NCBI RefSeq assembly: GCF_000720175.1 | Contig: NZ_JOIX01000011.1 | Span: 68,942 to 132,941, forward strand | From: Streptomyces sp. NRRL S-337 | GTDB taxonomy: Bacteria; Actinomycetota; Actinomycetes; Streptomycetales; Streptomycetaceae | Length of the DNA: 64,000 nt | Direction: 5' to 3' | In this document: positions 2,640 to 24,296 of the stretch, one piece after another | Layout: each line of letters begins with the position of its first letter | Numbering within the stretch: the stretch's first letter is position 1 | Notes under the pieces: generated by a model | Databases searched by the model: none | Told to the model about the DNA's origin: nothing | The model's input: only the letters and a program-made list of their open reading frames with translations | Program-made: the position numbers and the translations under genes

Positions 2640-2999
2640 GGCCGGCCGGCCACGACCGGCTGGCCTTCACCCAACCGCTGTGCGGCAGGCCGCCCTGGAG
2701 TCGCTGCTCAGACCGATGCGGGCGGGGCCCGCGGCGAATCCGTACGACCCGGCGAGCCCGCCCGCCCCGCCGCGGGTGCCCTGGCCGTCCAGCCCCGTCC
2801 GGCCGGCCTGGGGCAGATCGACCGGGTGATCGCCACCCTGGTCAGCGACGGCCTCACCCACAGCCGGAGCGTCACCCGCATCAACCGCACGCCGCACACC
2901 GTCAGTTATCACCTACGCAAGATGTTCGGCACACTCAGCGTCCGATCGCGCAGCGAATTCGCGGGCACGGTCAGGCAGAGACCATGGGAGGCGCCATGA
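2640..2999 (+). pseudogene. C-terminal HTH remnant of a LuxR-family regulator
   Basis: In the same frame as the preceding fragment but after its stop, the last 60 or so codons read as a LuxR/GerE helix-turn-helix: IDRVIATLVSDGLTHSRSV, then TPHTVSYHLRKMFGTLSV and RSRSEFAGTV. The typical scanning helix, recognition helix and closing R-S-R-x-E-x-A are all there. No plausible start codon or regulatory domain lies upstream in this frame. The frame ends at TGA 2997-2999, which overlaps the ATG of the next gene, so the remnant may still affect its translation. I interpret 2487-2999 as the fused debris of two genes. Confidence 0.6.
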
Positions 3000-4172: not shown

Positions 4173-4899
4173 CTACGGGACGGCTTGCCGCGGGCCGGGC
4201 GGGCGGACCTTGATGCTGCACCGCGGGCTGGTACGCGACGACGAGCACCAGCCCCGCACCTCCGGGTCGCGGGTGTATTGGGCGATGACCGCGGTGATAC
4301 TGCGCCGGCTGACCGGGGTGGCCACGCCGTCCCGGCGCGCCGCATGACCGGCGATCAGCTCACCCTCGGCGCACTGCCGGCACGGCCGGAGGAGGGCGAA
4401 CAGCGTCGAAGCCGGCGGGCAGCCGGCAGGACACCTCGGCGATGGCCTCGTGGATGTCGCCGCCGAGGCGGACCAGCAAGGGCAGTGCCTGGTCGAACAG
4501 CGCCAGGCCGCCGTGCCGGAAGTTCCAGCCCCCTTGTAGCCGACGCCCACGCAGGACGAGCCGCTGGGTTCCCCGATCACCACGGCGTCCGGCCGCATCC
4601 GGTCGGCCAGGTAGCAGGCGCCCGCCGAGTAGTGTTCCTCTTCGACGGCGCCGACCACGACGATGCGGGCCCGGCACACGTCGGACCGGGCGAATCGCGC
4701 GGCGGCGCAGATCATGGCCGCCGGCGGGCCCTTGGCGTCGACCGTGCCCCGGCCGTGCAGCACGCCGTCGATCGAGGTCCGGAAGCCGAGTGCGGGCATG
4801 CGTTCGGCCAGGAAGTCGCCGAGGGTGTTCTCGGAGCTCGGCACCTATGGGATGCGCACCATGACGTGCAGCCGCTCCGCCTCGTTCGCCCGGTCCATA
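4173..4899 (-). pseudogene. Decayed LysK/DapE-type M20 peptidase
   Basis: The relic runs from ATG 4899, whose product starts MDRANEAERLHVMVRIP and then meets TAG. It resumes as VPSSENTLGDFLAERMPALG. About 30 residues that should hold the first metal ligand (the H-x-D motif) are missing before GVLHGRGTVDAKGP. VVVGAVEEEHYSAGACYLAD and DAVVIGEPSG are well preserved, as in [LysW]-lysine hydrolases. After GYKG the frame shifts; pieces such as HEAIAEVSCRLPAGFDAV and RRSITAVIAQYTRD lie in different frames. One stop, one deletion and at least two frameshifts make it non-functional. Its 5' end starts only 4 bp beyond the stop of the PF10014 oxygenase gene, so it was once the last gene of that transcript. 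Confidence 0.75.
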
Positions 4900-4902
4900 G
4901 GC

Positions 4903-5649
4903 TCAGACCGCCGGGTTGAAGTCGACCTGGAGCATGTCGCGCACGCCCGAGGCGCCCTCGGAGACGGTCGGCGAGACCTCGTGGGTGATCCTGTTGTCGT
5001 CGAAGAACATGGAGTCGAGCGGCTGGAGCAGGGTGGTCTGCACGATGCCGCTGCCGTCGTTGGGGTGGACGGTGGACAGGCCGCCGGTGACGCCCTCGCG
5101 GCGCATCAGGTGCAAACCGACGCAGGAATGGCCGTCGCGGTGGCGGCCCTCGGGGGTGGGCAGGCCATCGGCGCCGGCGCGGGCGACGACGCGGACCAGG
5201 TGAACCCCGACCGTCCACGAGGTGTTGCCGTTGACCGCGGTCGCCATCCGGGCGTCGAAGCTGACCAGGGCGCGCATGCCGGCGCCGAGCAGGACGTCCT
5301 CGGCTATCGGCTCGAAGACCCGGTCCTTGCCCTTCCAGAGCGGGATGGCGTCCTGGCGGAAGACGGCGTTGGGCAGGACCTCGAAGGTGACGGCGTCGCC
5401 GTCGACGTCGACGCGCAGCCGGCCGTAGCGGCGCTCGCGGTAGACGCCGACGCCGTCGACCTGGGTGTCGACCGGCAGGTTCTCCCAGGCGCCGCGGAGT
5501 TCCTCAAGGTCGGCGTCGCCGATCAGCCCGGCGAGCTCCGGTTTGCGCAGGACGACGAAGCCGGTGCGGCGGACCTGCTCCGAGAAGGTGGGCACGCCGT
5601 CACGGAGCTGTGGTGCGGTGGTCAGCGTGGTGCTGGTGCTGTCGGTCAT
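4903..5649 (-). CDS. PF10014-type 2OG-Fe dioxygenase (L-isoleucine 4-hydroxylase-like)
   Basis: 248 residues. The protein has EGRHRDGHSCVGLHLMRR, giving H170 and D172 of the iron triad, and NRITHEVSPT with H223. This arrangement, with the short FFDDNR-x-x-H ending, is that of the 2OG-Fe_Oxy_2 family, which includes enzymes that hydroxylate free aliphatic L-amino acids such as isoleucine. ATG 5649 is preferred over an upstream ATG at 5667 because GGGGAAA sits just before it. It lies 155 bp downstream of the ATP-grasp ligase on the same strand, and the LysK relic follows immediately. I infer that it hydroxylates a free amino acid that the ligase then joins. Confidence 0.85.
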   Translation of the reverse strand: MTDSTSTTLTTAPQLRDGVPTFSEQVRRTGFVVLRKPELAGLIGDADLEELRGAWENLPVDTQVDGVGVYRERRYGRLRVDVDGDAVTFEVLPNAVFRQDAIPLWKGKDRVFEPIAEDVLLGAGMRALVSFDARMATAVNGNTSWTVGVHLVRVVARAGADGLPTPEGRHRDGHSCVGLHLMRREGVTGGLSTVHPNDGSGIVQTTLLQPLDSMFFDDNRITHEVSPTVSEGASGVRDMLQVDFNPAV

Positions 5650-5804
5650 GGTGTTTCCCCTTTGCACGGGTGTCCCGGCGGGGCCGGCGTTTCCGGCCGG
5701 GCCGGGTGCGGTTGATGTCGGGTGCGACCGATGGTCCGGTCACGCCCGGTGACGACGGTCGCCACGGGCAGATCGGCAGAGGCGTTGTGTGTCGTGGCGG
5801 GTGC

Positions 5805-7073
5805 TCACTCCTGCTCCTCGTACTCGACGTGCAGCGTCCGGGCGAGGTGGTCGAGGTACGCCTCGGCCTCCGCGTCCGACGCGTGGTGGGAGAGCACGAC
5901 CGCCGGGTTTCCGGACCAGTCCGGGTAGGGGCGCAGCACTGCGCCGGGGCCCGCGGTCTGCACCACGTAGTCCACCTGCGGGTCGGTACGCACCGCGTCC
6001 AAGCCGCGTATCTGCTTGACCCGTCCGCCGCTGCCGATCGGCACCAGGTACGCCGCCGCGTGGCCGGCCGGTGCCGGCCCCTCACGCCAGCAGATGGGCT
6101 CCTGCCCGAGGTGGATGCGCAGTGCCTCAGCAGCCAGGTCGATCCCGCTGCTGACGTGGGCGAGGTGGTGCATATTGCCCCCGCCGCCGAGGCGCGCGGT
6201 CATCTCCAGCAGCACCGGCCGCACCCCGCCGACCAGCCGCAGTTCGGTGTGCGTGGTGCCTTCCGTGACGCCGAAGGCGTGGTGGGCACCGATCACCTCC
6301 GCCTCGATCGCGGCGAGTATCTCGGCCGGCAGCTGGGCGGGGGCCCGCAATGTGGTCTCCTCGAAGTAGGGCCCCGTCAGCTGTCCCTTCCAGCTGACGG
6401 CACAGACCCTTACCTGCCCGTGGTACACGAGGGATTCGGCGGAGATCTCCGGCCCGTCCAGGTACTCCTCGACCAGCACACCGGTGTCCGAGTCCGGTCC
6501 GTGGGCGGCGCCCAGGTGGGTTTCGACGAGCTTCCAGGTACGGGCCACGGCCTGCTCAAGGCTGTCCCTGTCGTCCGCACGGATCACACCGAAACTGGAG
6601 TGGCCGTTCGCCGGTTTGACCACGACGGGGAACCGCAAGGTCAGCGCGTCGGTCCAGCTGTCCGGATCCTTGACGACCACGAAGCCGGGCACGCCCAGCC
6701 CCGCTTCCAGCAGGCGCTGGCGCATGCTGCGCTTGTCGCGCACCACGGCCGCCGCCTCCTCGGTCAGCCCGGTGAGGCCCAGCTCCCGAGCGGCGCGCGC
6801 CACGAACGGTATGACCCTTTCGTTGCCCGACATGATGCCGTCGAAGGGCTCTTGCCGGTAGCGGTCGGCGAGCGCGGACAACGCACCGTCCGGGTCTCCG
6901 TCGATGTCCAGCGGCAGCAGTTCGACCACCGCGTTGGCCCGCCCGGCGGACTCCGCCGAGTCGTCCCCCCTGGGGATGAGGATCAGGTCGATACCGGCAC
7001 GCTCGGCGGCATCGAACACCCAGGGGAACACGGACAACTGACCGGCGAGGACAAGTTTCGGGCGTTGCGGCAT
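5805..7073 (-). CDS. ATP-grasp ligase, L-amino-acid-ligase-like
   Basis: 422 residues with a full ATP-grasp fold. The N-terminal Rossmann-like part is KLVLAGQLSVFPWVFDAAE, the central domain holds RDKRSMRQRLLEAGLGVPGF and FPVVVKPANGHSSFGV, then VEEYLDGPEISAESLV, and the metal-binding end LLEMTARLGGGGNMHHL. Family members with this layout (BacD-like L-amino acid ligases) activate a carboxylate as acyl phosphate and couple it to an amine. ATG 7073 was chosen because the homologous sequence starts there; upstream sequence in frame is noise. It lies between the SARP gene and the PF10014 oxygenase, all on the minus strand. It could join an amino acid to another amino acid or to a 7-deazaguanine carboxylate; that choice is inference. 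Confidence 0.85.
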   Translation of the reverse strand: MPQRPKLVLAGQLSVFPWVFDAAERAGIDLILIPRGDDSAESAGRANAVVELLPLDIDGDPDGALSALADRYRQEPFDGIMSGNERVIPFVARAARELGLTGLTEEAAAVVRDKRSMRQRLLEAGLGVPGFVVVKDPDSWTDALTLRFPVVVKPANGHSSFGVIRADDRDSLEQAVARTWKLVETHLGAAHGPDSDTGVLVEEYLDGPEISAESLVYHGQVRVCAVSWKGQLTGPYFEETTLRAPAQLPAEILAAIEAEVIGAHHAFGVTEGTTHTELRLVGGVRPVLLEMTARLGGGGNMHHLAHVSSGIDLAAEALRIHLGQEPICWREGPAPAGHAAAYLVPIGSGGRVKQIRGLDAVRTDPQVDYVVQTAGPGAVLRPYPDWSGNPAVVLSHHASDAEAEAYLDHLARTLHVEYEEQE

Positions 7074-7225
7074 GACGGTTCTCCAAGCATCGGCTGTAGG
7101 GACGGGTCCGGGCAAGGCGCGCCGGCCGGTACGGTCCTGCGTGCGATCACCCTGGCGATCAGGGAGCCGCAGAACACCCCGGTGGCGTACGTCTCCAGGT
7201 TTCGCGTGAATTCCTCGAACTGCAC
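6983..7225 (-). CDS. Possible small ORF ahead of the ATP-grasp gene
   Basis: A GTG at 7225, with GGAGG 12 nt upstream, opens an 80-codon frame beginning MQFEEFTRNLETYATGVFCG. The first 45 or so residues have protein-like composition. The last 30 codons overlap the start of the ATP-grasp gene in another frame and look like noise. A tract of eight C residues lies just before the GTG, where indels are easy. It may be a real small peptide, the remnant of a longer gene, or nothing. No family recognised. Confidence 0.2.
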   Translation of the reverse strand: MQFEEFTRNLETYATGVFCGSLIARVIARRTVPAGAPCPDPSLQPMLGEPSCRNARNLSSPVSCPCSPGCSMPPSVPVST

Positions 7226-7243
7226 CGGGGGGGGTGGCCTCCG

Positions 7244-9076
7244 TCAGGCGGAGCACATGACCGGCGCGCTGCTCGGCCGCGTCCCGAACGGGCGTATCCC
7301 GGGCTCCCATTCGTAGGAGAACCGGCCGTTCACGCACGGGTGCTGCGCGCGCAGCAGGTAGTTCTCCGCGAGCTCCTCCAGCAGGTCCTCGGCCCGCTGG
7401 TCGCTGATCCCCAGGGCCGTTGCGACGAGCGCCGACGTGAGCCGGTCGGGGACGCCGGGAGACAACAGCGCGTACGCCAGGGGCCGCGACCCGGCGGGCA
7501 GCGTCGCGAGCGTCCTGTCGAATCCGGCCCGCACGCCCAGCGGATCGCTGTCGGCGCCCCCGGACGCGAGGACCCAGGCAGTGGCGTGCCGGGCCGTCCA
7601 GTGCGGGCGGCGGCGCAACTGCGAAGCGACCGCGAAGAGCGCGCCCGGCAGCCCCCGGCACAACCGGGCCAGCCGTCGCAGCCCCTCCGGGTCCATGGTG
7701 ATCCGGTGTCTCGGCACGGAGGATGCCAGCAGGTGCAGACAGTCGTCGAAGGGCAGTCCGGACAGTTCGACGTGGACCGCCGACGAGGACACGAACAGCC
7801 GCCGACGGCTGCCGATCACCACGCCGCAGCCGGCGCCGGAGGGCAGCAGCGGGGTCAAGTCCCGTACGTCGCACACGTCGTCGAGCACCACCAGGACGCG
7901 GAGGTCGGCGGTCCAGGTGCGGAACAGCAGGCTCAGGTCGGTCGTGCCCAGTCGCAACTGCTCCTCGGTCGCGCCGAGTCCCCGCAGGAACGAGCGCAGG
8001 ATCTCGGCGGGCCGCACCCGCCGGCCGGCGCCGTCCCGGAGACGCGCATAGAGCCGTCCGTCCGGGTAGTGACCGCTCACCTGATGCGCGGCGTGCAGGC
8101 ACAGCTCGCTCTTGCCCGTGCCGGGGGCGCCCCCCACGATCACGAGCGGCCGGTCCTCCCGCGCCCGGCCGGCCAGCACCGCGGTGAGGCGCGCCAGCTG
8201 GCCGGCGCGTCCGGTCAGACGCTCGCGCGGGGCGGGCAGATGGCAGGGCGCCCGGGTGGCGGCGGTCACGGCCGTGAGCCGCCCGGCGGGACGCAGCAGC
8301 GCCTCGTCCGACGTGAGCACGGCCGTGTGCAGGGCCTGGAGTTGGGGCGAAGGGTCGAGACCCAGCTCGGTGGCGATCCGCTCGCGTGCGCGCTGGTAGA
8401 CCTGGAGCGCTTCCGCCCGCCGGTCCATGCGGTAGAGAGCCGTCATCAGATTGCCCTGGGCCCGCTCGTCCGTCGGTTCCCGCCCGGCCATCGAGGTGAG
8501 TTCGCCGAGCACCTCGTGGTGCCGGCCGAGGTGCAGGTCCGATTCGATCCGCAGGTGGAGTGCGCCGGTACGCAGCTCCTTCAGGCGGATCGCCTCGGCC
8601 TTCAGCGTAGGCCCCTTGCGTACGTCCACCAGGGCATCGTCCCGCCACAGCTGCAGCGCAGCGGCGGCCGTGTCACGGGCCCGGGCGAAGTCCTCGGCAC
8701 GGAACTCCGCTCGGGCACGTTCGAGCAACGGCTCGCACCGGAAGACGTCCACGTGGTCGGCGGGCAGCGACAGCTGGTAGCCGCCGTCGACCGTGCCCAG
8801 CAGCGGTCCGGCCGCCCGTACCGCGCCGCCGCTCCTCGGGTTGCCGAGGGAGAACCGCTTCCTGAGCTGGTACACGTACGTCTGCAGCGCGGTGTGCGCG
8901 CTGGCCGGCGGGTTGTCGTTCCACAGCTCGTCCATGAGTTGCTCGAAGGGCACCACCCGGCCCGCGTTCAGCACGAGCGTTGCCAGTGTCTGACGTACTT
9001 TCTGGGCGGCCGGCGCCATGTCGACGCGGTGATCGTCCCCGTAGGCCTGGAGCGGCCCGAGAAGGTTGATTCTCAT
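7244..9076 (-). CDS. AfsR/SARP-family regulator with NB-ARC domain
   Basis: 610 residues. Residues 1-95 form the OmpR-type winged helix typical of SARPs (MRINLLGPLQAYGDDHRVDM, then ALQTYVYQLRKRF). Residues 100-250 are the bacterial transcriptional activation domain with LMTALYRMDRRAEALQVYQR and ELGLDPSPQLQALH. An NTPase module follows with Walker A GGAPGTGKSE and Walker B VLVVLDDV. The usual C-terminal TPR block is nearly absent, so it is shorter than full-length AfsR. It is embedded in the gene run that it probably controls, 112 bp after the IPNS-like gene. SARPs bind heptameric direct repeats near promoters; I could not confirm such sites by eye. Confidence 0.9.
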   Translation of the reverse strand: MRINLLGPLQAYGDDHRVDMAPAAQKVRQTLATLVLNAGRVVPFEQLMDELWNDNPPASAHTALQTYVYQLRKRFSLGNPRSGGAVRAAGPLLGTVDGGYQLSLPADHVDVFRCEPLLERARAEFRAEDFARARDTAAAALQLWRDDALVDVRKGPTLKAEAIRLKELRTGALHLRIESDLHLGRHHEVLGELTSMAGREPTDERAQGNLMTALYRMDRRAEALQVYQRARERIATELGLDPSPQLQALHTAVLTSDEALLRPAGRLTAVTAATRAPCHLPAPRERLTGRAGQLARLTAVLAGRAREDRPLVIVGGAPGTGKSELCLHAAHQVSGHYPDGRLYARLRDGAGRRVRPAEILRSFLRGLGATEEQLRLGTTDLSLLFRTWTADLRVLVVLDDVCDVRDLTPLLPSGAGCGVVIGSRRRLFVSSSAVHVELSGLPFDDCLHLLASSVPRHRITMDPEGLRRLARLCRGLPGALFAVASQLRRRPHWTARHATAWVLASGGADSDPLGVRAGFDRTLATLPAGSRPLAYALLSPGVPDRLTSALVATALGISDQRAEDLLEELAENYLLRAQHPCVNGRFSYEWEPGIRPFGTRPSSAPVMCSA

Positions 9077-9188
9077 GAAATTCGCCCTGTCTCATGTTCG
9101 TTCGGTCCCCGTCGGACCGGCCGGCGACGCCACCGCCGGGCCCGACCACTCGGGCCGGGCGGTGAGGATGTGCTCGGCCGCCCCGGTG

Positions 9189-10214
9189 TCAGGAACTCCT
9201 GGACCCGGCTACCGCGGCCAGGGTCGGGTGGTGTCGGGCAACGATGTCGGGGAAGGAGCGGATCAGCCCTTTCATGACGTTGTCGCCGTAGAGGGCGAAC
9301 AACGGGTTGCCGGCGACGTCGATGACTCCGCCGGCGCCCTCGACATAGGGGCTGGGCAGTGGCTGCATCGTGGCGTCCAGCCGAGGGTTGTAGAAGAAGG
9401 GAATGGAGTAGCGGTTGACGCCCGGGGCGGGCCGGACCACCCGGTGGAGGGTGGCACGCACATAGCCCCTCGTCGCCACCTCCAGCAGCTCTCCCAGGTT
9501 GACCACGAACGCCCCCGGGATCACCGGCACGTCGGCGAACTGGTCGTCCTCGACCGCGACCTGGAGGCCGCCGTTGCCGTCCTGGACGAGCAGGGTGAGC
9601 AGTCCGAGGTCGTTGTGGATGCCGGTGCCCTGGCCGGAGCCGGCGTTCTCGCTCGTCTGCGTGGGACCGGGGTAGTGCAGGAGTTTGAGGTGGATCTGCG
9701 GATCCGGAGCGACCACATCGTCGAGGAAATCGGCGGGGGCGTCGAGGGACTCAAGCATCAGCCGTAGCAGTCGATGTGACAGGTCGGTCAGCCGGGTGAT
9801 CCATGACTCGATGGCCGGGCGCAGCTCTGGCATCGCCTCGGGCCACTCGTTCGGGCCGATCAGGCACCGGTAGGCGGGTTCGCCGGGCGCGGGCGTCCTC
9901 GCGGGCTGCTCCGGCCCGATGTCCAGCTGTTGGCGCTGGTCGGGGATGCCCTTGGTGTGTTCGCGGCCGAGTTCGGAGTAGCCGCGGAACAGTGGCGAAT
10001 CGAGGATGTTCAGCGCGAGCCGATCGGGCTCGGGCAGGGCGAAGAACCGGCGGGACAGTTCGAGCATGTCCTCGGCGTCCTCGATGCCGTGGCCGACGAG
10101 CTGGAAGAAGCCGATCTCGTGGATGGCCTGGCGCAACCGGTTCAGGAACGCTGCCCGGGTTTCTTGTGAACCGGCGGCGTCACGGAGGTCGAGCACGGGA
10201 AAGCGGTCGGTCAT
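9189..10214 (-). CDS. Isopenicillin-N-synthase-like non-heme iron oxygenase
   Basis: 341 residues. The N-terminal DIOX_N-like part is IHEIGFFQLVGHGIED. The double-stranded beta-helix part carries GTGIHNDLGLLTLL with H200 and D202, ATLHRVV with H257, and NRYSIPFF with R268 and S270. This matches the H-x-D...H and R-x-S signature of IPNS-like 2-oxoglutarate oxygenases. Its ATG overlaps the queC stop (ATGA), with AAGGAG just upstream inside queC, so the two are translationally coupled. That coupling ties oxidation to preQ0 supply. The substrate is unknown; it may act on the deazapurine or on the amino-acid part. Confidence 0.88.
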   Translation of the reverse strand: MTDRFPVLDLRDAAGSQETRAAFLNRLRQAIHEIGFFQLVGHGIEDAEDMLELSRRFFALPEPDRLALNILDSPLFRGYSELGREHTKGIPDQRQQLDIGPEQPARTPAPGEPAYRCLIGPNEWPEAMPELRPAIESWITRLTDLSHRLLRLMLESLDAPADFLDDVVAPDPQIHLKLLHYPGPTQTSENAGSGQGTGIHNDLGLLTLLVQDGNGGLQVAVEDDQFADVPVIPGAFVVNLGELLEVATRGYVRATLHRVVRPAPGVNRYSIPFFYNPRLDATMQPLPSPYVEGAGGVIDVAGNPLFALYGDNVMKGLIRSFPDIVARHHPTLAAVAGSRSS

Positions 10215-10900
10215 GGCAGCTCCTTCGCATCGCTGGTCTGGTAGTGCGTCGGGTCGGTCACGCCGGCGTCCCGGAACGCTTCCTGCCGCTCCCGGCAGGC
10301 GGCGCACCGTCCGCACTGCAGCGCATCGCCGCGAAAGCAGCTCCAGGTCTCGGTCCAGGGGACGCCGAGTTCCTCACCGAGCGACACCACGTCGCTCTTG
10401 CGCAGCCTGACCAGCGGCGCTGTCAGTGTCAGGTCAGGGTGCGCGTATCCGCGGGTCGCGATCCGCTCCATGGCGAGGAAGGAATCGATGAACGCGGCAT
10501 TGCTGTCGGGCGCGGCCTGGAGGTCGTCGACCACCCCGACGGCCACCGCTTCCGCCTTCTCGGCGACGGCGACCGCGAAGGCGACGGACAGCAGGAGGGC
10601 ATTGCGGTTGGGTACGACGTTCGGGCTCCCGCCGGACGACCCACTCCGGTGATCCGGCACGTCGACGGTCGGGTCGGTGAGCGAGGAGCCGCTCAGGAGC
10701 TTGCCGACGGGGCTGAGATCGACGACGTCGTGCGGCACCCCGAGTGATCGAGCCGCCTTCACGGCGAACTCGTGCTCGACGAGATGGCGCTGGCCGTAGT
10801 TCACGGACAGCAGGTGGAGGGTGTGTCCTTGCGCCTGGAGGTGGTAGGCCATGGTGACCGAGTCCAGGCCGCCGGACACGATTGCGACAGTTTTCGGCAT
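10211..10900 (-). CDS. queC: 7-cyano-7-deazaguanine synthase
   Basis: 229 residues. It has the N-type ATP pyrophosphatase loop VSGGLDSVT at residues 8-16 and the C-terminal zinc site CFRGDALQCGRCAACRERQE, both standard for QueC. The enzyme turns 7-carboxy-7-deazaguanine into the amide and then the nitrile preQ0, using ATP and ammonia. It is the last step of the preQ0 route, whose other genes (queE, queD, folE) lie upstream on the same strand. The stop overlaps the start of the IPNS-like gene. No tRNA-guanine transglycosylase, QueF or DpdA gene is visible nearby, so the product probably feeds a small molecule and not RNA or DNA modification. Confidence 0.95.
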   Translation of the reverse strand: MPKTVAIVSGGLDSVTMAYHLQAQGHTLHLLSVNYGQRHLVEHEFAVKAARSLGVPHDVVDLSPVGKLLSGSSLTDPTVDVPDHRSGSSGGSPNVVPNRNALLLSVAFAVAVAEKAEAVAVGVVDDLQAAPDSNAAFIDSFLAMERIATRGYAHPDLTLTAPLVRLRKSDVVSLGEELGVPWTETWSCFRGDALQCGRCAACRERQEAFRDAGVTDPTHYQTSDAKELP

Positions 10901-11002
10901 GCGTCGCCTTCCGGCAGACGGAGAGGGATGGAGGGTCAGTGCTGAAGGATCAGGGCAGCGGTGTGCTGTGCACCGAAACGGCGGCGGACGTGCGGGCGTT
11001 TG

Positions 11003-11983
11003 TCACCGTGCCGGCGTGGCCGGGACGAGCAGCCGGGTCGATCGGTGGCCCTTGCGGTAGGTCAGTTCGACTTCGGGCCGCGGACCGTCCAGCCTCGTGG
11101 TGACGGTTCGCTCCTCGCTCCATCCGACCAGGCGGTACTCGTTTCCGCCGAGGGCCACCAGCGGGAAGAGGTGGTCCTGGGGAGATCGAATGGCCAGGTC
11201 CGTACCGGTGTCGACGATGCTGAAGGTGGCCTGCGGCTGCGGGCCGGTGAGCGACCCGAACACCTCTATTTCCAGCAGGTGCGCCGGCGCGTCGAACGAA
11301 CACCGCGCCGCTTCCCGCTCCTGGTCGGTCGTGGCCACGGCCGGACGGTTGTAGAGCACGTCCGGGCCGTTGAAGTAGTCGGCCCAGTCAGCCGGGAACA
11401 GCCCTGCGAGCTCCGGTGTGACGAGCACGTCCACGACGAGATGCACCCGGTGCTGGGTACCGAGGTTCTGGATCTGGTGCTTGCGGCTGAAGTCGCCGAA
11501 CCAGAACTCACCGGGCTGCCAGCGGTACATCCCTCCGTCAAGGTCCAGCGAGGCTTCCTCGTGGGTGAGGACCGGGATGTGCAGCCGGGCCATGCCCCAG
11601 TCCGGGGCGAACTTGGGATCGCAATGGCGGTATCCGACGACGCCGGGTCCGAGATCCATGAATCGGACTGCATAGAGGGGTCCGGGAATCGAGCGCAGGA
11701 CCTCCTGCACGTAGGGCATGTGGTCCAGCCACTCGGTGTCGGCGAACTCCGCGCTGCCAGGGCCCCCTGGGTCGGTACGTGTCTTGTCGCCACCGGGGCT
11801 GCGCACCGGGAGGCAGCGCCAGTCCTGTTCGGCCCACCTGGACACTCGCCCGTTCTCGTGCGAGCTCTGCTCATCCCACAGGTGGTCGCGCGCAGTCATG
11901 AGGTCGGCCACCAGCCGGTCGGCGTCCAGCACGGGGAGCAGCCGAGCCGCTTCCGCAGGCGTCGAAGAATCACTTTCGTTCAT
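11003..11983 (-). CDS. Aspartyl/asparaginyl beta-hydroxylase-like oxygenase with an extra C-terminal domain
   Basis: 326 residues. Residues 100-190 show the AspH cupin core: GYRHCDPK (H120), MARLHIPVLTHEEA (H135), PGEFWFGDFSRKHQIQN (H169), and HRVHLVVDV with R179. AspH enzymes use two histidines for iron and hydroxylate Asp/Asn or related amino-acid beta carbons. About 125 residues beyond the core, rich in beta-strand-like sequence and ending in RKGHRSTRLLV, form a second domain that I do not recognise. ATG 11983, preceded by AAGGGAC, fits the start; the frame upstream looks random. It lies between folE (160 bp) and queC (102 bp), inside the preQ0 gene set, which suggests action on the same product. 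Confidence 0.8.
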   Translation of the reverse strand: MNESDSSTPAEAARLLPVLDADRLVADLMTARDHLWDEQSSHENGRVSRWAEQDWRCLPVRSPGGDKTRTDPGGPGSAEFADTEWLDHMPYVQEVLRSIPGPLYAVRFMDLGPGVVGYRHCDPKFAPDWGMARLHIPVLTHEEASLDLDGGMYRWQPGEFWFGDFSRKHQIQNLGTQHRVHLVVDVLVTPELAGLFPADWADYFNGPDVLYNRPAVATTDQEREAARCSFDAPAHLLEIEVFGSLTGPQPQATFSIVDTGTDLAIRSPQDHLFPLVALGGNEYRLVGWSEERTVTTRLDGPRPEVELTYRKGHRSTRLLVPATPAR

Positions 11984-12143
11984 CGTTGTCCCTTCATGTC
12001 GACCGGACCGGATTCCCATGTCTGTCATCGGCCGCGATCGACCAGTCGGCCCCCGCAGCGGTCCGGAGAGTGAGCTCGCGAGCAGCGTCACGCCCGTTCC
12101 GAGCGCCCCGCCGGACGCCGCACTTTCGGAGTCCGATGACTCG

Positions 12144-12734
12144 TCACGCCCGGAGCAGGTCGAACAGCTCGCCCCGGAGCCCGGGGTCCGTGCTGAACTC
12201 CCCGCGATATGCGGTCGAGGTCATCTGCGCGGCAGCCTTGATGCCGCGCATCGACATGCAGAGGTGCTCGCCCTTCGCTATGACCGCGACGTCCGGGGTG
12301 CCGCTCAGGGTGCTGATCTCGAGCGCGATCTGGTCCACGAGGCGTTCCTGGACCTGCAGCTTGTGCGCGTACTGATGGGCGACCCTGGCGAACTTCGACA
12401 GGCCGAGCAGTTGCCCCGTCGGGCGGTACGCGATCGTCACGGAGCAGTTGAACGGCAGGAGGTGGTGCTCGCACAGCGACCAGACCTGAATGTCTGAGAC
12501 GACTACGAGCTGGCTCGTGCCGATGGACTCGAAAAGCGTGCCCAGCGAACCCGGGTCGTAGTTGATGAACTCTCGCCACCAGCGGGCGAACCGCGCCGGT
12601 GTGTCGCGCAGTCCGTCGCGATTCGGGTCCTCGCCGATCTCCACCAACAGTTGGCGGGCGATCTCGACCAGGGGGTCCTCGGTCGTCCTCGACGCTGACG
12701 GGTCACCATCGAGGTCCAATTTTGTCATCGACAT
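12144..12734 (-). CDS. folE: GTP cyclohydrolase I
   Basis: 196 residues, normal for the family. The zinc ligands are visible: SLCEHHLLPF gives C88 and H91, and GEHLCMSMRG gives C159. Other family marks are DGLRDTPARFARWWRE and GLSKFARVAHQYAHKLQVQE. It makes 7,8-dihydroneopterin triphosphate from GTP, the first step to both folate and preQ0. Its position between queD and the AspH-like gene points to a cluster-dedicated copy for deazaguanine synthesis; Streptomyces normally carry another folE in the folate operon elsewhere (general knowledge). AAAGGTGA precedes the ATG, and queD ends 37 bp upstream. Confidence 0.95.
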   Translation of the reverse strand: MSMTKLDLDGDPSASRTTEDPLVEIARQLLVEIGEDPNRDGLRDTPARFARWWREFINYDPGSLGTLFESIGTSQLVVVSDIQVWSLCEHHLLPFNCSVTIAYRPTGQLLGLSKFARVAHQYAHKLQVQERLVDQIALEISTLSGTPDVAVIAKGEHLCMSMRGIKAAAQMTSTAYRGEFSTDPGLRGELFDLLRA

Positions 12735-12771
12735 GTGGTCACCTTTCGTCCGGGCTGCGGAGTTACCGACC

Positions 12772-13134
12772 TCACGGCCGGTACTCGGCCCAGGTCTTGG
12801 GAGTCTCTGAGATACGCACGCAGGTCAACTCGGGAAACTTCGTCGACCATGTCTTGTAGAGCCAGGCCGCCATATTCTCAGCCGTCGGATTTTCGTCCAT
12901 CACATCGTTGAGATGCCGATGATCAAGGTGATCGTCCAGCCAGGCCTTGAATGCGGACAACTCTCCGTAGTCTCGAACGAAGCCCACGGGCAGCAGATCC
13001 GCATCATCGGCTCCAAGCTCCAGCTCGATCACATAGTTGTGCCCGTGCATTCGGGCACACTGGTGCTCAGGAGCAAGGCCGGCAAGCCGATGACTGGCCG
13101 AGAATTCAAACTTCTTGGTGATGCGAAATGCCAT
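12772..13134 (-). CDS. queD: 6-carboxy-5,6,7,8-tetrahydropterin synthase
   Basis: 120 residues. It has the PTPS fold marks: SASHRL with zinc ligand H15, CARMHGHNY with catalytic C26 and zinc ligands H30 and H32, LDHRHLND, the ENPTAENMA loop and a C-terminal ISETPKTWAEY glutamate. The C-x-x-x-H-G-H spacing is that of QueD and not of mammalian-type PTPS. It converts dihydroneopterin triphosphate to CPH4. The gene sits between queE and folE with 37-bp gaps on both sides, so it is almost surely co-transcribed with them. Confidence 0.95.
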   Translation of the reverse strand: MAFRITKKFEFSASHRLAGLAPEHQCARMHGHNYVIELELGADDADLLPVGFVRDYGELSAFKAWLDDHLDHRHLNDVMDENPTAENMAAWLYKTWSTKFPELTCVRISETPKTWAEYRP

Positions 13135-13171
13135 CGATCCGAGTTCCCTTCTGCTTTGCGCGCACCGTTGC

Positions 13172-13885
13172 TCACACGGCGCGTTTGTCGTCCCACACCA
13201 AGGTGTGCAGTCTGGTCGTCAGGTTCCAGCCGCGCTTTACCACCGCGTCGGCCAACTCGCTCATGTGCTTGGTGACATCGTCGGCGGTACGCCCGATCGG
13301 CATGATCCATACCGAGGGCAGGTCGAAAGCGGCAACCAACTGGGCCACTTCGTCGAGATCACGGGTGTTCTGGCAGACGAACTTGAACGTGCTTCCCGGC
13401 AGTGCCGCAAGACTGGTGAGGGCGGAAGGGACGATCCTGCGCTGCAGGGTGTCGCCCGAGTGCGACAACTTCGGCGAGACGTTGAACCGGACGCCGGCGG
13501 CGATGAGTTCGGGGTGCGCGGCGTGCGTCCCATTGGTCTCTATCTCGATCTCCTTACCGCGTCCGGTCAGTGCTGCCACCAGAGGAATCAGTCGCTCTTG
13601 CTGGCCCAGGGGCTCACCGCCGGATATCACGATCAGCTCGGTGTCGAACCCGAGCAATTCTGCGACGACCTCTTCGACCGGACGGCGGTGCAGCTCCTTA
13701 CGCGGATCGTGGGCGACCCCGCTCTCACCGGCCCCGGTCCAGTCCCACGTGTAGGGCGTATCGCACCACGAGCACGACAGGTTGCACCCGCCGAGTCGCA
13801 GGAACGCGCACCTGCGTCCCAGGGACCGACCCTCGCCCTGGACGGTCGGACCGAAGATTTCGTTCACTACGAGATCCTGCTCCAT
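13172..13885 (-). CDS. queE: 7-carboxy-7-deazaguanine synthase (radical SAM)
   Basis: 237 residues. The radical-SAM cluster motif is GGCNLSCSWCDTPYTWD with C34, C38 and C41 in C-x3-C-x2-C spacing. The N-terminal NEIFGPTVQGEGRSLGRRC and the later VISGGEPLGQ and ETNGTHAAHPEL are typical of QueE. The enzyme contracts the ring of CPH4 to 7-carboxy-7-deazaguanine (CDG). The ATG has AGGAAACG just upstream and begins 13 nt after the methyltransferase stop. CDG carries a free carboxylate, which could in principle be used by the ATP-grasp ligase of the cluster. Confidence 0.95.
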   Translation of the reverse strand: MEQDLVVNEIFGPTVQGEGRSLGRRCAFLRLGGCNLSCSWCDTPYTWDWTGAGESGVAHDPRKELHRRPVEEVVAELLGFDTELIVISGGEPLGQQERLIPLVAALTGRGKEIEIETNGTHAAHPELIAAGVRFNVSPKLSHSGDTLQRRIVPSALTSLAALPGSTFKFVCQNTRDLDEVAQLVAAFDLPSVWIMPIGRTADDVTKHMSELADAVVKRGWNLTTRLHTLVWDDKRAV

Positions 13886-13898
13886 GGCGCACCGTTTC

Positions 13899-14681
13899 CT
13901 ATGAGTGGGACGGCTCGACGGCCGCGGGCTTCTGCGCCTGGACTATGAACCAATGCCGACTCAGCCGGACGCCCTGTTCGACCGTCACCGCGGCGACATA
14001 TCGATCGAATGCCTCCTTGTCCGCCGCCGAATCGTAGTTGTCGAGGATCGGCACTTGGTGCAGAAAGGTGTCCAGATCGCCCGCCGAGTGGTAGAACTCC
14101 TCGAACCGGAACGCCTGGTTTCTTGTCACGACGAAACCCGCATCGGACAGTTCTTGAGCAATCTCCTCCGACAAGGGCCTGCCGTTCCAGCTGTCGAAGT
14201 TCTGGCCGCGGCCGAACGTTTCCTTCAGCTCTCGCGCGTCCTGCTCCCCGATCCCCATGTACAACACGACCCCGCTGGGCCGCAGCACCCGCTCGAATTC
14301 ACGGGCGATCAGCGGACCGCGGCGGGAAGTGACCACATCGGCGTACCCATCGGGCAGTCCCGTGTGGGCGGCATCGCACAGCTCGAACGTGACGTGCGAC
14401 AGACCTGCCTCCGCTCGGTACCGCGCGGCGCATTCCAGCATCGAGGGCGACAGATCTATCCCGGTCACGGCGCCGTACGCACGAGAGATGCGCAGCAAAC
14501 TCCGCCCGTCGGCGCAGCCGACATCCAGCAGTCGGGCGTCCGGCGCTCCCAGTGCGTTCGCCAGTTCGTCGAAGACGGCGTCCGGGCGGCCGTCGGCGAA
14601 TACGTCGGTGCTCCGCGCATCGCTCAAGTAGCCGCCGAACCGCTCGGCCACCCGGGAGTAGAACTCCGCGTCCATCGTCAT
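13899..14681 (-). CDS. SAM-dependent methyltransferase (class I)
   Basis: 260 residues. The SAM-binding motif I is LLDVGCADGRSLL near residue 53, followed by VTGIDLSPSMLECAARY, an acidic-loop segment FELCDAAHTGLPDGY and the post-motif FERVLRPSGVVLYMG, all standard for the Methyltransf_11/25 type. The C-terminal part is variable and would hold the substrate site. Its ATG overlaps the stop of the 65-codon ORF upstream (ATGA), and queE follows after 13 nt, so it is the second gene of the deazaguanine transcript. It may methylate the deazapurine or an amino-acid part; the sequence cannot tell. Confidence 0.9.
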   Translation of the reverse strand: MTMDAEFYSRVAERFGGYLSDARSTDVFADGRPDAVFDELANALGAPDARLLDVGCADGRSLLRISRAYGAVTGIDLSPSMLECAARYRAEAGLSHVTFELCDAAHTGLPDGYADVVTSRRGPLIAREFERVLRPSGVVLYMGIGEQDARELKETFGRGQNFDSWNGRPLSEEIAQELSDAGFVVTRNQAFRFEEFYHSAGDLDTFLHQVPILDNYDSAADKEAFDRYVAAVTVEQGVRLSRHWFIVQAQKPAAVEPSHS

Positions 14682-14875
14682 CGGCCGTGCACCTTCCCCT
14701 GAACCACGGTCGAGGAGAGGCCCTGATGCGCACGCACCGGTTCCCTCCTCTTCCGTGGGAACTCCCAGTCAAGCTCTACCGCTGCTGTCGCGGGGGTCTT
14801 TGCGCTGCGCTGCGATTCGGTTTCCGGGACGCCGCACGCGGCGGGCGTCACCGCGTCCCGGGTCAATACGGTCAT
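14678..14875 (-). CDS. Small ORF heading the deazaguanine operon (65 aa, unknown)
   Basis: ATG 14875 has a very good AAGGAG site 8 nt upstream, and the frame ends in an ATGA overlap with the methyltransferase start, so it is very likely translated. The product begins MTVLTRDAVTPAACGVPETE, then has AVELDWEFPRKRREPVRAHQ and ends VVQGKVHGR. It has one cysteine, no membrane helix and no zinc ribbon, and is basic in its second half. I recognise no family. It could be a leader that couples translation, a small carrier or scaffold peptide, or a regulator. An alternative ATG at 14884 lacks a ribosome site. Confidence 0.55.
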   Translation of the reverse strand: MTVLTRDAVTPAACGVPETESQRSAKTPATAAVELDWEFPRKRREPVRAHQGLSSTVVQGKVHGR

Positions 14876-15269: not shown

Positions 15270-18194
15270 TCAGCCGACCGGCGTCATCGTCCTGCCCAGG
15301 GTGGCAACGATGTCAGCCCGTACGGCAGCGGCCCCGCTGTGGTCCATGATCCGCTCCCGGATCCTGGCCGATCGGGAGTAGTACTCGACGGCCTGTTCCA
15401 CACGACGCAGGCGGGCATTGACCCGGCCGAGGTCGTGCAGCACATACCCCTCTCCGACCAGGTCGCCGCTCGCCCCGACCATGGCGAGGACCTCAAGCAG
15501 GGTCCGTTCCGCCGCCTCGTACCGCTGCTGGTACATCAGCATGTGGCCCAGCCGCCGCAGTGCGAGGGCTTGGCCCCGGTCGAAGCCGGCTGACCGGCAG
15601 ATCCCGAGAGCCTCGTCGAGATACGAACGGGTTCGCGCGAAGTCCGCTCGCCGCATCGTGATGTGCGCCATCTCGCCCAGCACGTATGCCCGGCCGATGA
15701 CGTCCTGCGCCCGCACGAAGTTGCGCTCGGCGCTCTCGTAGAGGGCCAGCGCCCGAGCGTCGTCACCATGGTGCCGCTCGATGCGCGCCAGGTCACGCAG
15801 ACACAGCGCTTGGCCACTCGGCTCCCCGATCCGCTCAAAGATCTCCAAAGCGGTGCTGAGGTAAGGGCCTGCTGCCTCATGCTCGCCCCGGTACAGGTGC
15901 AGGGTCCCCAACGAGCCGAGTACCGCTGCCCGGCCCCGTTCGTTGCCGGCCTCCTGTACCGCGGTCAGCGCCACCTGATGTGTGCGCTCCCAGAGCTCGG
16001 GATAGCCACGGGCCTCGAAGAGCGTCACCAGAGTCGTGGCCAGCTCCCAGCACAACTCGTCCAGCCCGGACCGGGCCGCCAACTCGACCGCGTTCAACAG
16101 GTTGGTCTGCTCGCTCTCCAGCCACCCGAGCGGGTCGCGGAGGCACCGCTGGACCTGGTCCTCCGGCGGATGCCACCGTTCACCCCGGCCCGTCACGATG
16201 GTGTACGCACCGCCGTAGATCTCTTTGTGCGCCCGCTCGGCGAGCGCCATCCAGCCGCCGACCATACGCCGCACCGCTCCGGCGCGTTCTGCCTCGGAAA
16301 TCTCCGCGGGCAGCCGTTCGTGCGCGATCATCCGTACGATCTGCGACAGTCCGCATCGGAACTCCCCGCCCTGGTCCATGGCGGTGATGTCGAGGAGCCG
16401 GCTGTCGATGAGCGGTTCCAGCAGGTCAGCGGGGTGCGGCGGGCGGTCGTCGATAAGGGCGGCACCCAGCCAGCTCGGGATCTCCGTCCCCTCGGCCAGA
16501 CTGAGCAGGCACAACAGGCGACGGTCGGCCGCCGCCAGGCCGTCGTAGCTGAGCGAAAGACTTGCCCGGATCGACAGCTCGCCGTGTGCCAGCTCGTCCA
16601 ACCGGCGGTGCTCGTCCTCAAGCCGCTGGCACATGGAGGTCAGTGACCAGTGCGGGCGCGCGGCCAGGCGCGCGCCGATGATACGCAGCGCGAGGGGCAG
16701 CCCGCCCACCAAGCGTATGACGACCCGCGCTGCCTCCCGCTCGCTCTCCACACGGTGCTCTCCGATGATCCGCCCCAGGAGCTGGATCGCCTGTTCCGGA
16801 CTCAACGGCTCCAAGTTGAACCGGCGTGTGCCCGGCAAGGCCGTGAGCTGGCCGCGGCTGGTGACCAGCACGCCGCTGCTGCCGGTTCCGGGCAGCAGCG
16901 GCATCACCTGCGACTCGCTCACCGCGTCGTCCAGCAACACCAGGATCCGGCGACCGGCCAGCAGACTGCGGTACATCTCCGCGCGCTCATCAAGCGCATC
17001 GGGTATGGCCTGGCCCGGTACGCCCAGCGCTCGGAGGAACCGCCCCAACGCCTGGGCGGGGTCGACCGGTTGTCCGCCCGGCCCTCGGAGGTCGCAGTAG
17101 AGCTGTCCGTCCGGGAAGTACTCGGTCGCGAGTCGGTGCGCCACGTGCCTGGCCAACGTGCTTTTGCCGACACCAGGTCTGCCGAGCACCAGGACCACGT
17201 TCAGTCGCCCCTTTTCCTGTCCCCCGGTGACCGCGTCGCAGACCGCTGAAACGATCGCGTCGTCGGCTACGAAGTCGCCGATGTCGGCGGGAAGTTGCCT
17301 GGGGGTGACGACCGGGTCGGGATCGGCGCTGCGCTCTTGCACCGCCTCGGTCAGCGGCGTCGCCATGAGAGGACGTGGTTCGGCCGGTTCGGCCGGTTCG
17401 GCCAGTGCCAGGTCAGCGTCGTCGGTCAGGATCGCCTGCGCCAGGTCGCGTAGTTCCCTTCCTGGGTCCAGGCCCAGTTCTTCGGTGAGCATCGCGCGGC
17501 CCTGGTGGTAGACGTCCAGCGCCTCCGCCTGCCGGCCCGAACGGTACAACGCCACCATGAGGTGCCCCCGCAGCCGCTCACGCAGCGGATGGTCGGCGAC
17601 AAGCTGCATCAGCTCGCCGACCAGGTGCTCATGACGGCCCAGCTCCAGCAACAGCCGCATGCAGGTCTCCACCGCTTCCAGGCGGCTCTCGTCCCACTGC
17701 GCTGCCGTACCGGCCAGGACTTCGCTGGGTACACCGGCCAGGCACCGCCCCCGCCACAGACCTATCGCCGAGCGAAGCGTGTCCACCGCAGGCATCTTCA
17801 GACCGTCACGGGCCAGCGCATGCGCCTCCGTTACCAGGCGACGGAAGGTGCCGATGTCGGTCGCATCCTCCGGCGCCCTCAGGATGTAGCCACAGGCACG
17901 GGTCTCGATGGTGGCGTCGACTCCCCCGGCCGAAAGTGCCTTGCGGAGCCGGGAGATGCAGATCTGCACCTGGGCGCGTGCGGTCTTCGGCGGACGGTGA
18001 GCCCAGATGACATCCACCAGGCGGGTCGTCTCCACCACCCGGTTCAGTTCGAGCACCAGCGCCCCGAGGACGATCTCTTGACGCCCCGGTGCCACGGATA
18101 CGGCCCCCAGCTCGCCGCACACCTCAAGCGGCCCGAGCACCCGGAAAGGAGCTGCCGCTACGCCACTGCCGTCGTAACCTGACGAGACTGCCAT
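15270..18194 (-). CDS. AfsR-type SARP regulator (SARP, NB-ARC, TPR)
   Basis: 974 residues, similar in size to AfsR. The N-terminal winged helix is FRVLGPLEVCGELGAVSVAP and QVQICISRLRKAL. The activation domain has LMVALYRSGRQAEALDVYHQ and ELGLDPGRELRDLAQ. An NB-ARC ATPase follows with Walker A LVLGRPGVGKSTL and Walker B RRILVLLDDA, then VVIRLVGGLPLALRIIGARL. The C-terminal third is TPR-like, with repeats such as ALALYESAERNFVRAQ and AVEYYSRSARIRE. An AEPAEPAEP repeat links two domains. It stands alone at the right border of the cluster and is the most likely pathway activator, possibly responding to a ligand through NB-ARC/TPR. Confidence 0.92.
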   Translation of the reverse strand: MAVSSGYDGSGVAAAPFRVLGPLEVCGELGAVSVAPGRQEIVLGALVLELNRVVETTRLVDVIWAHRPPKTARAQVQICISRLRKALSAGGVDATIETRACGYILRAPEDATDIGTFRRLVTEAHALARDGLKMPAVDTLRSAIGLWRGRCLAGVPSEVLAGTAAQWDESRLEAVETCMRLLLELGRHEHLVGELMQLVADHPLRERLRGHLMVALYRSGRQAEALDVYHQGRAMLTEELGLDPGRELRDLAQAILTDDADLALAEPAEPAEPRPLMATPLTEAVQERSADPDPVVTPRQLPADIGDFVADDAIVSAVCDAVTGGQEKGRLNVVLVLGRPGVGKSTLARHVAHRLATEYFPDGQLYCDLRGPGGQPVDPAQALGRFLRALGVPGQAIPDALDERAEMYRSLLAGRRILVLLDDAVSESQVMPLLPGTGSSGVLVTSRGQLTALPGTRRFNLEPLSPEQAIQLLGRIIGEHRVESEREAARVVIRLVGGLPLALRIIGARLAARPHWSLTSMCQRLEDEHRRLDELAHGELSIRASLSLSYDGLAAADRRLLCLLSLAEGTEIPSWLGAALIDDRPPHPADLLEPLIDSRLLDITAMDQGGEFRCGLSQIVRMIAHERLPAEISEAERAGAVRRMVGGWMALAERAHKEIYGGAYTIVTGRGERWHPPEDQVQRCLRDPLGWLESEQTNLLNAVELAARSGLDELCWELATTLVTLFEARGYPELWERTHQVALTAVQEAGNERGRAAVLGSLGTLHLYRGEHEAAGPYLSTALEIFERIGEPSGQALCLRDLARIERHHGDDARALALYESAERNFVRAQDVIGRAYVLGEMAHITMRRADFARTRSYLDEALGICRSAGFDRGQALALRRLGHMLMYQQRYEAAERTLLEVLAMVGASGDLVGEGYVLHDLGRVNARLRRVEQAVEYYSRSARIRERIMDHSGAAAVRADIVATLGRTMTPVG

Positions 18195-24109: not shown

Positions 24110-24296
24110 GAGGCGTCCATCCTTCCGGCGAAGGGACGCCGGTGCGTAGAAGAACTCCGTTCATGGCGAACCTACTTGGGCGATGACAATGACTCAAGTC
24201 GGTATGTCGTAGCCACGTAACGGGGTTCACCTCCGTGGTGTGCGGCACAGGTGACTGAGCAATTGCCCATACCTGGGGTTTTCGGAGCCGATGAGC

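Follow-up and report, generated by a model that had tools for sequence, protein, structure and literature searches.

Which product is made by a Streptomyces locus that joins the genes of deazaguanine synthesis to several iron oxygenases and an amino-acid ligase? We analyzed a window of 64,000 nucleotides from Streptomyces sp. NRRL S-337, in which ten adjacent genes (4903–14681, minus strand) were recognized by Pfam as folE, queD, queE, queC, three iron/2-oxoglutarate oxygenases, a methyltransferase, an amino-acid ligase, and a SARP. With the start sites chosen, all ten begin with ATG and are free of internal stops. This is the gene set, all on one strand, that a sequence-only reading had claimed at 4903–14875. 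The boundaries drawn in that reading were incomplete: the whole cluster is wider, about 28 kb, and the reading had omitted SbnA, SbnB, a thioesterase, an MFS transporter, and an NRPS left of the window, as well as a FemAB-like protein, a protein of the circularly permuted ATP-grasp type, and the fourth of the oxygenases. The methyltransferase (13899–14681, minus strand) was assigned by Pfam to class I SAM enzymes, and the SARP regulator (7244–9076, minus strand; BTAD and NB-ARC domains) by Pfam BTAD. A second SARP/AfsR-like regulator (15270–18194, minus strand) lacks an orthologue in the Kutzneria locus retrieved for comparison.

The cluster recurs in other actinomycetes, and the related loci comprised 11 of group A (the window included) and 3 of group B; one search for relatives used exact peptide patterns and therefore found close relatives only. 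The gene order from the methyltransferase to the SARP was preserved in 10 other loci, and the arrangement is therefore more than chance. A copy of about 26 kb, independently annotated, is carried by a complete plasmid of S. angustmyceticus, at about 4311–30161. The S. palmae locus holds a BesD-type chlorinase, and the G035 locus lysine-pathway genes. The dN/dS ratios were 0.08–0.49 against the Kutzneria locus L007 (17 genes with an orthologue), 0.13–0.42 against L011, and 0.13–0.65 against L008; afsR2, at 0.76 over half its length, was left out of the Kutzneria range because its match there is not an orthologue. Genomes with a match of at least 62% to diox, the IPNS-like oxygenase, had QueC matches above 160 bits (13 of 13), and QueC matches were below 28 bits in 16 of 16 genomes taken from among the next-best diox matches, which were not a random draw. 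All 29 genomes exceeded the Pfam QueC cut-off of 22 bits; the low-diox genomes reached at most 27.3 bits, most of these matches covering some 70 of the 210 positions within frames at least 500 residues long, and their matches probably represent other enzymes of the superfamily.

FolE (GTP cyclohydrolase I, 12144–12734), QueD (6-carboxytetrahydropterin synthase, 12772–13134; Pfam PTPS), and the radical SAM enzyme QueE (7-carboxy-7-deazaguanine synthase, 13172–13885) were identified by Pfam on the minus strand, and the three accompany QueC in all 11 group A loci. The catalytic motifs that a canonical preQ0 pathway calls for in these enzymes were found, those of QueE in 14 of 14 loci, those of FolE in all 13 loci where FolE was found, and those of QueD in 13 of 14 (one pattern is missing in L009). 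The window proteins scored below the equivalog cut-offs for QueD (83.5 against 89.25), QueE (99 against 206), and FolE (158 against 182 on TIGR00063), and FolE exceeded that of the subfamily model NF006826 (176 against 162). Four FolE-family places, the cluster gene among them, were found in the NRRL S-337 genome. Since the motifs of FolE, QueD, and QueE are intact, 7-carboxy-7-deazaguanine (CDG) can be taken as a safe predicted intermediate, and preQ0 cannot.

QueC (10211–10900, minus strand), recognized by the Pfam QueC model, is divergent: its YPDC motif reads APDS, and E. coli Y189 is replaced by phenylalanine (numbering of Y131 and Y189 as in PMC13329287, transferred by alignment with E. 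coli 2pg3). None of the 14 cluster QueCs (13 in the residue table, and that of G035 read separately) kept either tyrosine, so that a QueC with both YPDC and the zinc-region tyrosine was found in 0 of 14, in contrast to the comparison QueCs, a set drawn from similarity searches rather than a random sample, of which 15 of 17 kept both. The exceptions were L120, without Y131, and L126, without both tyrosines, its match carrying an in-frame stop. The 14 cluster QueCs formed a single clade with support of 100/99. In E. coli QueC, Y131A and Y189A are each reported to abolish activity in vivo (PMC13329287). The earlier assertion of intact active sites thus stands for FolE, QueD, and QueE and falls for QueC, and a "full preQ0 pathway" is unsupported because the cluster QueC is without two residues required for preQ0 synthesis in E. 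coli. With residues needed by the standard enzyme gone, this last deazaguanine enzyme may, judging from its sequence, catalyze a new reaction. The P-loop, VPxRN, the conserved lysine, and all zinc cysteines were retained in the 13 tabulated QueCs, as was YxQxHxxE (YxQxNxxE in one). On TIGR00364 the cluster QueCs scored 139–152 bits against a cut-off of 150.3, which one of six passed and the window QueC narrowly missed, versus 174–192 bits for five QueCs that keep YPDC. Loss of Y131 may also be compensated, or may accompany a modified CDG substrate. A second match to the QueC model in the NRRL S-337 genome, of the low-scoring kind found in the low-diox genomes, scored 21.9 bits, and the AlphaFold model of QueC (mean pLDDT 61.7) was too poor for use.

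The oxygenase at 4903–5649 (minus strand) belongs by Pfam to 2OG-Fe_Oxy_2 (PF10014), a family including L-isoleucine-4-hydroxylase. It matched that hydroxylase (6lnh) with an E-value of 4.2e-7; stronger matches, the best being 3pl0 (6.4e-18), bear no substrate in their names. The HRDG motif was found in 6 of 6 proteins, and in three loci the slot is occupied by a HilA-like enzyme; family scores of the specialized oxygenases fall short of the cut-offs (110 against an equivalog cut-off of 500 for the HilA-like oxygenase). The IPNS-like 2OG oxygenase diox (9189–10214, minus strand; Pfam DIOX_N/2OG-FeII_Oxy) overlaps queC by 4 bases (ATGA), and its HxD, H, and RxS motifs are kept in all 14 proteins. 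It is the oxygenase common to all variants, present in 14 of 14 loci, which had been located via the diox protein or, for the plasmid, via the window DNA. An Asp/Asn beta-hydroxylase-like 2OG oxygenase (11003–11983, minus strand; Pfam Asp_Arg_Hydrox) retains HxD in 11 of 11 loci. The fourth enzyme, a PhyH-type 2OG oxygenase (1636–2490, plus strand), resembles the solved leucine hydroxylase GriE (5nch, E-value 2.2e-99) and is confined to the NRRL S-337 and S. rhizoryzae clusters (2 of 11 loci).

The cluster also has genes for peptide formation. SbnA (367 bits against 350) and SbnB (402 against 327) both exceeded their NCBI equivalog cut-offs, and the pair is predicted to synthesize 2,3-diaminopropionate. 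The NRPS has two modules, and its A-domain codes were read by motif: the residues of domain 2 were identical in 10 of 10 copies and those of domain 1 in the 9 of 10 that were fully read, the first code presumably specifying glycine. Both domains expected of an L-amino acid ligase, ATP-grasp_4 and LAL_C2, were found by Pfam in the protein at 5805–7073 (minus strand), whose nearest solved structure is 3vot, BL00235 (E-value 1.4e-68). It reads LEMTAR at the place where ATP-grasp enzymes usually carry a metal-binding asparagine, and a search of 40 kb from G315 revealed no such ligase. A circularly permuted ATP-grasp or glutathionylspermidine-synthase-like protein (1–1398, minus strand, extending 89 bases left of the window) was assigned from the domains of its homologues. 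The protein itself has no Pfam match and its S. rhizoryzae orthologue no solved relative; 13 of 120 listed homologues bear PF03738, PF04174, or PF14403, and several are named at source as glutathionylspermidine synthase or circularly permuted ATP-grasp. A FemAB-like (double-GNAT) transferase (2996–4144, plus strand) matched PF13480 at 22.4 bits against a cut-off of 22 and no NCBIfam model; an orthologue is annotated as a phosphatidylglycerol lysyltransferase domain-containing protein, and the AlphaFold model (mean pLDDT 50) was too poor for use. The permuted ATP-grasp-type and FemAB-like genes were each present in 9 of the 11 loci of group A; contig ends cut the remaining two. FemAB-like enzymes are reported to make amides in other natural products (PMC12945691).

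On balance, we favor, with somewhat better than even confidence, a secondary-metabolite cluster for a CDG-derived, non-nucleoside peptide bearing 7-deazaguanine, possibly with QueC as an amide ligase. The amino-acid-conjugate logic behind the 7-deazaguanine–amino acid product proposed earlier finds support here. SbnA and SbnB would supply L-2,3-diaminopropionate, and the leucine-hydroxylase-like and IDO-like (elsewhere HilA-like) oxygenases would yield hydroxylated free aliphatic amino acids. Amide bonds could then be formed by the two-module NRPS, with its first domain read as glycine, the amino-acid ligase, the FemAB-like transferase, and the permuted ATP-grasp protein; the IPNS-like and AspH-like oxygenases would tailor the base or conjugate, the MFS pump would export the product, and the two SARPs would activate the genes. 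The divergent QueC would probably make no free preQ0 and might transfer activated CDG to an amino-acid or peptide amine, by analogy with Cap9 acting on a protein-terminal glycine. Cap9 itself keeps a YPDC-like motif, and motif loss is therefore no mark of deazaguanylation. All of these reactions, and most of all that of QueC, are proposals built on the observed gene inventory, its conservation, and the residue changes in QueC. More tentatively, we suggest that the QueC fold has a third function, as a small-molecule amide ligase that attaches 7-deazaguanine as a cap to a peptide made by an NRPS or a ligase, perhaps on the first-module glycine, in a family with a constant base and strain-swapped amino acids (hydroxy-Ile/Leu in the group of the window, a BesD-type chlorinase in S. 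palmae, and lysine-pathway genes in G035).

Other explanations were weighed against this one. QueC might still make preQ0, other residues replacing the lost tyrosines, with a conjugate of this nitrile to follow, such as an amidine or imidazoline from diaminopropionate. The retained motifs, the TIGR00364 scores near the cut-off, and the vicinal diamine indicated by SbnA and SbnB agree with this possibility, but the single substitutions that kill the E. coli enzyme in vivo (PMC13329287) concern residues gone from all 14 cluster QueCs, and the YPDC-keeping QueCs score clearly higher, so that we give it roughly one chance in a handful. It is less probable still that QueC acts on a different carboxylate, converting an amino-acid or peptide acid to an amide or nitrile. 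Base stacking would then no longer be needed, as fits an enzyme that has lost the base-recognition residue and retained its ATP and zinc parts, and ATP-dependent peptide nitrile synthesis is reported elsewhere (PMC13060819); the constant company of FolE, QueD, and QueE in group A nevertheless speaks against it.

In NRRL S-337 the NRPS cassette lies beyond the MFS gene on the opposite strand, as might be expected of two unrelated neighbors, a diaminopropionate NRPS cluster and a deazaguanine cluster. However, in 10 of the 11 loci of group A SbnA adjoins the genes of deazaguanine synthesis, across four arrangements, and in G315 and G365 the cassette sits among the cluster genes; this very improbable explanation was rejected on synteny. 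The least credible alternatives are the synthesis of a nucleoside antibiotic and a system for RNA/DNA modification or defence. Deazaguanine genes are typical of both, and the PADLOC QueC model matched at 78.5 bits, but QatC matches were weak (four proteins scanned), and no CD-NTase or QatB is named among the neighbors on the S. angustmyceticus plasmid. TGT-type transglycosylases, searched with the Pfam TGT model (PF01702), were absent from the one own genome and present in 14 of 14 control genomes; QueF (PF14489) was likewise absent, against 8 of 14 controls. No phosphoribosyl- or glycosyltransferase was found among the own genes scanned by Pfam (those other than the NRPS, thioesterase, and MFS genes) or named in the plasmid copy. 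These absences, of a phosphoribosyltransferase-type enzyme as of TGT and QueF, agree with those reported in the sequence-only reading, as does its preference for a biosynthetic cluster. With no Pfam match to TGT or QueF in the genome and no phosphoribosyltransferase among the cluster genes scanned or annotated, RNA modification and nucleosides are therefore unlikely; RNA or DNA modification was rejected on the former.

The ATP-grasp_4 and LAL_C2 domains are shared with the L-amino acid ligases BL00235, BacD, and DdaF, whereas the present ligase occurs together with the genes for CDG synthesis and an NRPS. Echiguanines have a sugar-free, amide-linked structure; no gene cluster for them was found among the literature matches listed. 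They are reported as deazaguanine metabolites of Streptomyces sp. MI698-50F1, and toyocamycin/sangivamycin-type pathways are reported to use homologues of FolE, QueD, and QueE to convert GTP to CDG in Streptomyces (PMC6112128). This route is shared by the present cluster with those of the toyocamycin/sangivamycin, tubercidin, and huimycin type, the last being known from Kutzneria (PMC7439116). Unlike the 7-deazapurine nucleoside clusters, the present one has no phosphoribosyltransferase seen and has peptide-forming enzymes, four oxygenases, and a non-YPDC QueC clade. Deazapurine metabolites so far reported, as far as these sources extend, are mainly nucleosides; in the present family deazaguanine synthesis is tied to the assembly of peptides, and no gene for adding a sugar was seen. 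A QueC fold serving beyond free preQ0 is known from Cap9 of type IV CBASS, reported to couple CDG to the N-terminal glycine of a protein (PMC13279940; PMC11996544), and is proposed for QatC, and we liken the present QueC to both. Cap9 is reported to retain a YPDC-like motif and QatC to have other remodeled motifs (PMC13329287), whereas the present QueC has lost YPDC and its neighbors include no named CD-NTase or QatB. QueC enzymes were recently shown to modify immune proteins, and the present clade lets a role in building small molecules be tested directly. A GATOR-GC survey counted 828 windows of the preQ0 family BGC0001217, spread over 95 genera, with Streptomyces accounting for 28%, and the accessible part of its text describes no peptide-linked subfamily (PMC11888242); the present family may belong to these windows. 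No characterized match to the cluster was found among the matches listed in the open-licence PMC literature.

Within the window, a decayed-looking M20 peptidase remnant of the [LysW]-lysine hydrolase type (4173–4844, minus strand) is thought to be non-functional. Its partial relative in L006 scored 70 bits on NF003367 against a cut-off of 363, and an M20 peptidase fragment is present in G365 too.

The genes of the block were examined by Pfam and NCBIfam domain searches, which confirmed the gene list of the sequence-only reading. Ten genes, all on the minus strand between 4903 and 14681, encode an IDO-type 2OG oxygenase, an ATP-grasp amino-acid ligase, a SARP, an IPNS-like 2OG oxygenase (9189–10214), QueC, an AspH-like oxygenase, FolE, QueD, QueE, and a methyltransferase. 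All ten have an ATG start and an open frame, with start sites as chosen in this analysis, the metal motifs of the cluster oxygenases are retained, and queC and the IPNS-like oxygenase gene overlap by 4 bases. Since the FolE family has four places in this 9.06-Mb genome, whose closest named relatives are Streptomyces, the cluster folE is an extra copy. The limits first assigned to the cluster (4903–14875) proved too narrow, as it extends over about 28 kb from SbnA (position 59144 of contig C11, on which the window spans 68942–132941) to a second SARP (window 18194). The genes to the left of 4903 include one for a FemAB-like transferase and one for a PhyH-type oxygenase, which among solved structures is closest to a leucine hydroxylase (5nch, E 2.2e-99). 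A further protein there has homologues that partly go by the names circularly permuted ATP-grasp and glutathionylspermidine synthase. Beyond the left edge of the window are an MFS transporter and a thioesterase, both named from the annotated Streptomyces angustmyceticus plasmid copy, an NRPS, and SbnB and SbnA, both of which exceed the NCBI cut-offs for 2,3-diaminopropionate synthesis. The make-up of the NRPS, read from copies in the genomes G315 and G365 (92–93% identical), is A-T-C-A-T. Its first adenylation domain opens the enzyme without a preceding condensation domain and has the code DILQLGLVW, which we take to be a glycine code; the code of the second is DNWNVTEVT.

A pattern-based search of 84,980 genomes with the IPNS-like oxygenase as the query yielded nine loci. 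Seven of these, together with G315 and G365 (from 394 family genomes), the S. angustmyceticus plasmid and the window, make up the 11 loci of group A, all of which showed an identical gene order from the methyltransferase to the IPNS-like oxygenase, with a SARP next. The amino-acid part of the cluster differs between these loci: the IDO-type enzyme is present in 6 of 11, a HilA-like enzyme occupies that slot in three (scored only for locus L005: 110 bits with NF041274, whose cut-off is 500), and neither was seen in G315 or in the contig-cut locus L004. The PhyH-type gene occurs in two of the 11, and the group A gene matrix shows no ligase for G315. The SbnA-SbnB-thioesterase-NRPS cassette lies past the MFS gene in seven loci, of which L011 alone has it on the same strand and the other six on the opposite one. 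G315 has it between the FemAB-like gene and the SARP; in G365 and in L004, whose contig stops inside SbnA, it immediately follows the region of the ligase or IDO-type gene. In L006 the cassette is on a separate 8.9-kb contig. SbnA was thus counted as linked in 10 of 11 loci, which argues strongly against two chance neighbours. G365 carries SbnA twice in opposite orientation (L041:1273–2331 and L043:1192–2250) around approximately 19 kb that hold the other NRPS-cassette genes, along with some that appear PKS-like by eye, suggesting a recombination event within the cluster. Three group A loci also retain pieces, apparently decayed, of an M20 peptidase that is of the [LysW]-lysine hydrolase type (window 4173–4844, L006:16161–17030, and G365 L041:522–965).

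The pathway had been described as a full preQ0 pathway with intact active sites, a claim that did not hold for QueC. Standard QueC, as defined in PMC13329287, carries SGGxDS, YxQxHxxE, VPxRN and YPDC motifs together with a zinc site formed by cysteines; the same work reports that the Y131A and Y189A variants are inactive in E. coli. We compared these positions between the 14 cluster QueCs and a comparison set of 17 proteins chosen by similarity, among them those of E. coli and B. subtilis and second QueCs from S. rimosus and S. iranensis. The cluster proteins retain the zinc site and the P-loop (as SGGVES in G035). In all 14, A, V or T stands in place of the YPDC tyrosine (Y131), and F, L or M in place of the zinc-region tyrosine (Y189); both tyrosines are present in 15 of the 17 comparison proteins, the exceptions being L120 and L126. 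L120, the G730 protein outside the clade, reads PLPDAS without the YPDC tyrosine and retains the zinc-region tyrosine. The 14 cluster QueCs are separated from the rest by a branch with support of 100/99, found in 100% of 200 bootstrap trees, although some branches are long. With TIGR00364 (cut-off 150.3), five YPDC proteins scored 174–192 and six cluster proteins 139–152, one of the six above the cut-off. On this evidence, 7-carboxy-7-deazaguanine (CDG) is the product that can safely be predicted for the pathway; free preQ0 is doubtful. The cluster QueC as a query matched one place in its own genome; a second match to the Pfam model elsewhere (21.9 bits) was rejected as a QueC.

Cap9 attaches CDG to a protein's N-terminal glycine, and a similar action has been proposed for QatC (PMC13279940, PMC11996544). 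This chemistry, along with the presumed glycine code of the condensation-less first NRPS domain, leads us to favor by analogy a QueC step that would join CDG by an amide to an amino acid or peptide. Against this reading, Cap9 retains a YPDC-like motif that is lost in the cluster QueCs, so the losses show a change but not its direction. The absence of TGT and QueF was borne out, as neither had a match in the genome. The cluster family is real and conserved, and is uncharacterised as far as the literature searches reach; its product is likely CDG-derived, non-nucleoside and peptide-linked. Both the predicted product and the QueC reaction are directly testable.

Three further, more distantly related loci (group B), L009 from S. 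rimosus, L010 from S. palmae, and G035, retain QueC, QueD, QueE and the IPNS-like oxygenase at 62–71%, together with an MFS gene and an amino-acid ligase of another kind. FolE was seen in two of them; in the third, L009, the stretch covered starts at queE, and about 4 kb of contig lie beyond it. In S. palmae there is a BesD-type enzyme (L010:6350–7150) that carries the halogenase motif HWG and scores 284 bits, the curated cut-off being 450; G035 has DapD, DapC and LysA homologues. These additional genes point to lysine. With a BesD-like lysine halogenase in such a deazaguanine-type cluster, a chlorolysine-deazaguanine product would be worth a search. Common to both groups, where the stretch reaches, are the CDG pathway, the divergent QueC, the IPNS-like oxygenase, a pump, and one or more amide ligases or NRPSs; what varies is the amino acid. 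We infer from this that the IPNS-like oxygenase would act on the base or on a shared linkage, its constancy being partly by choice as it was also the search query.

The cluster family is uncommon: its close form was found in 3 of 394 family genomes, the window's own genome counted, and among 394 class genomes the window's own QueC alone fell inside the cluster clade. A protein-database search with the AspH-like oxygenase gave 20 full-length relatives that share at least 79% identity with it; those with a named source come from Streptomyces, Kutzneria, Amycolatopsis and Actinoplanes, and identity then drops to 56% for the next full-length one. Of 29 genomes examined, 13 have the IPNS-like oxygenase at 62% identity or above, and all 13 also have a QueC above 160 bits. 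None of the 16 genomes with the next-best oxygenase has such a QueC; their QueC matches were all below 28 bits, yet above the 22-bit Pfam cut-off. The dS values against Kutzneria were 0.18–0.45 for every gene except queD (0.97) and a non-orthologous AfsR match, and these low values suggest a recent horizontal transfer. One cluster copy is carried on a 616-kb plasmid.

Elsewhere in the window, Streptomyces plasmids give 93–96% matches to a region that runs from near 24274 to 25000 or beyond. The frame of a virginiamycin-B-lyase-like/NHL protein (24297–26246, minus strand) overlaps at its upstream end with tRNA-Leu(gag) (26113–26204, minus strand), so the protein probably starts further in. Two giant genes on the plus strand, at 39257–46831 and 46886–56782, encode Tc-toxin-like components, of the SpvB/TcdB type and the TcA type with a TcB-binding domain.
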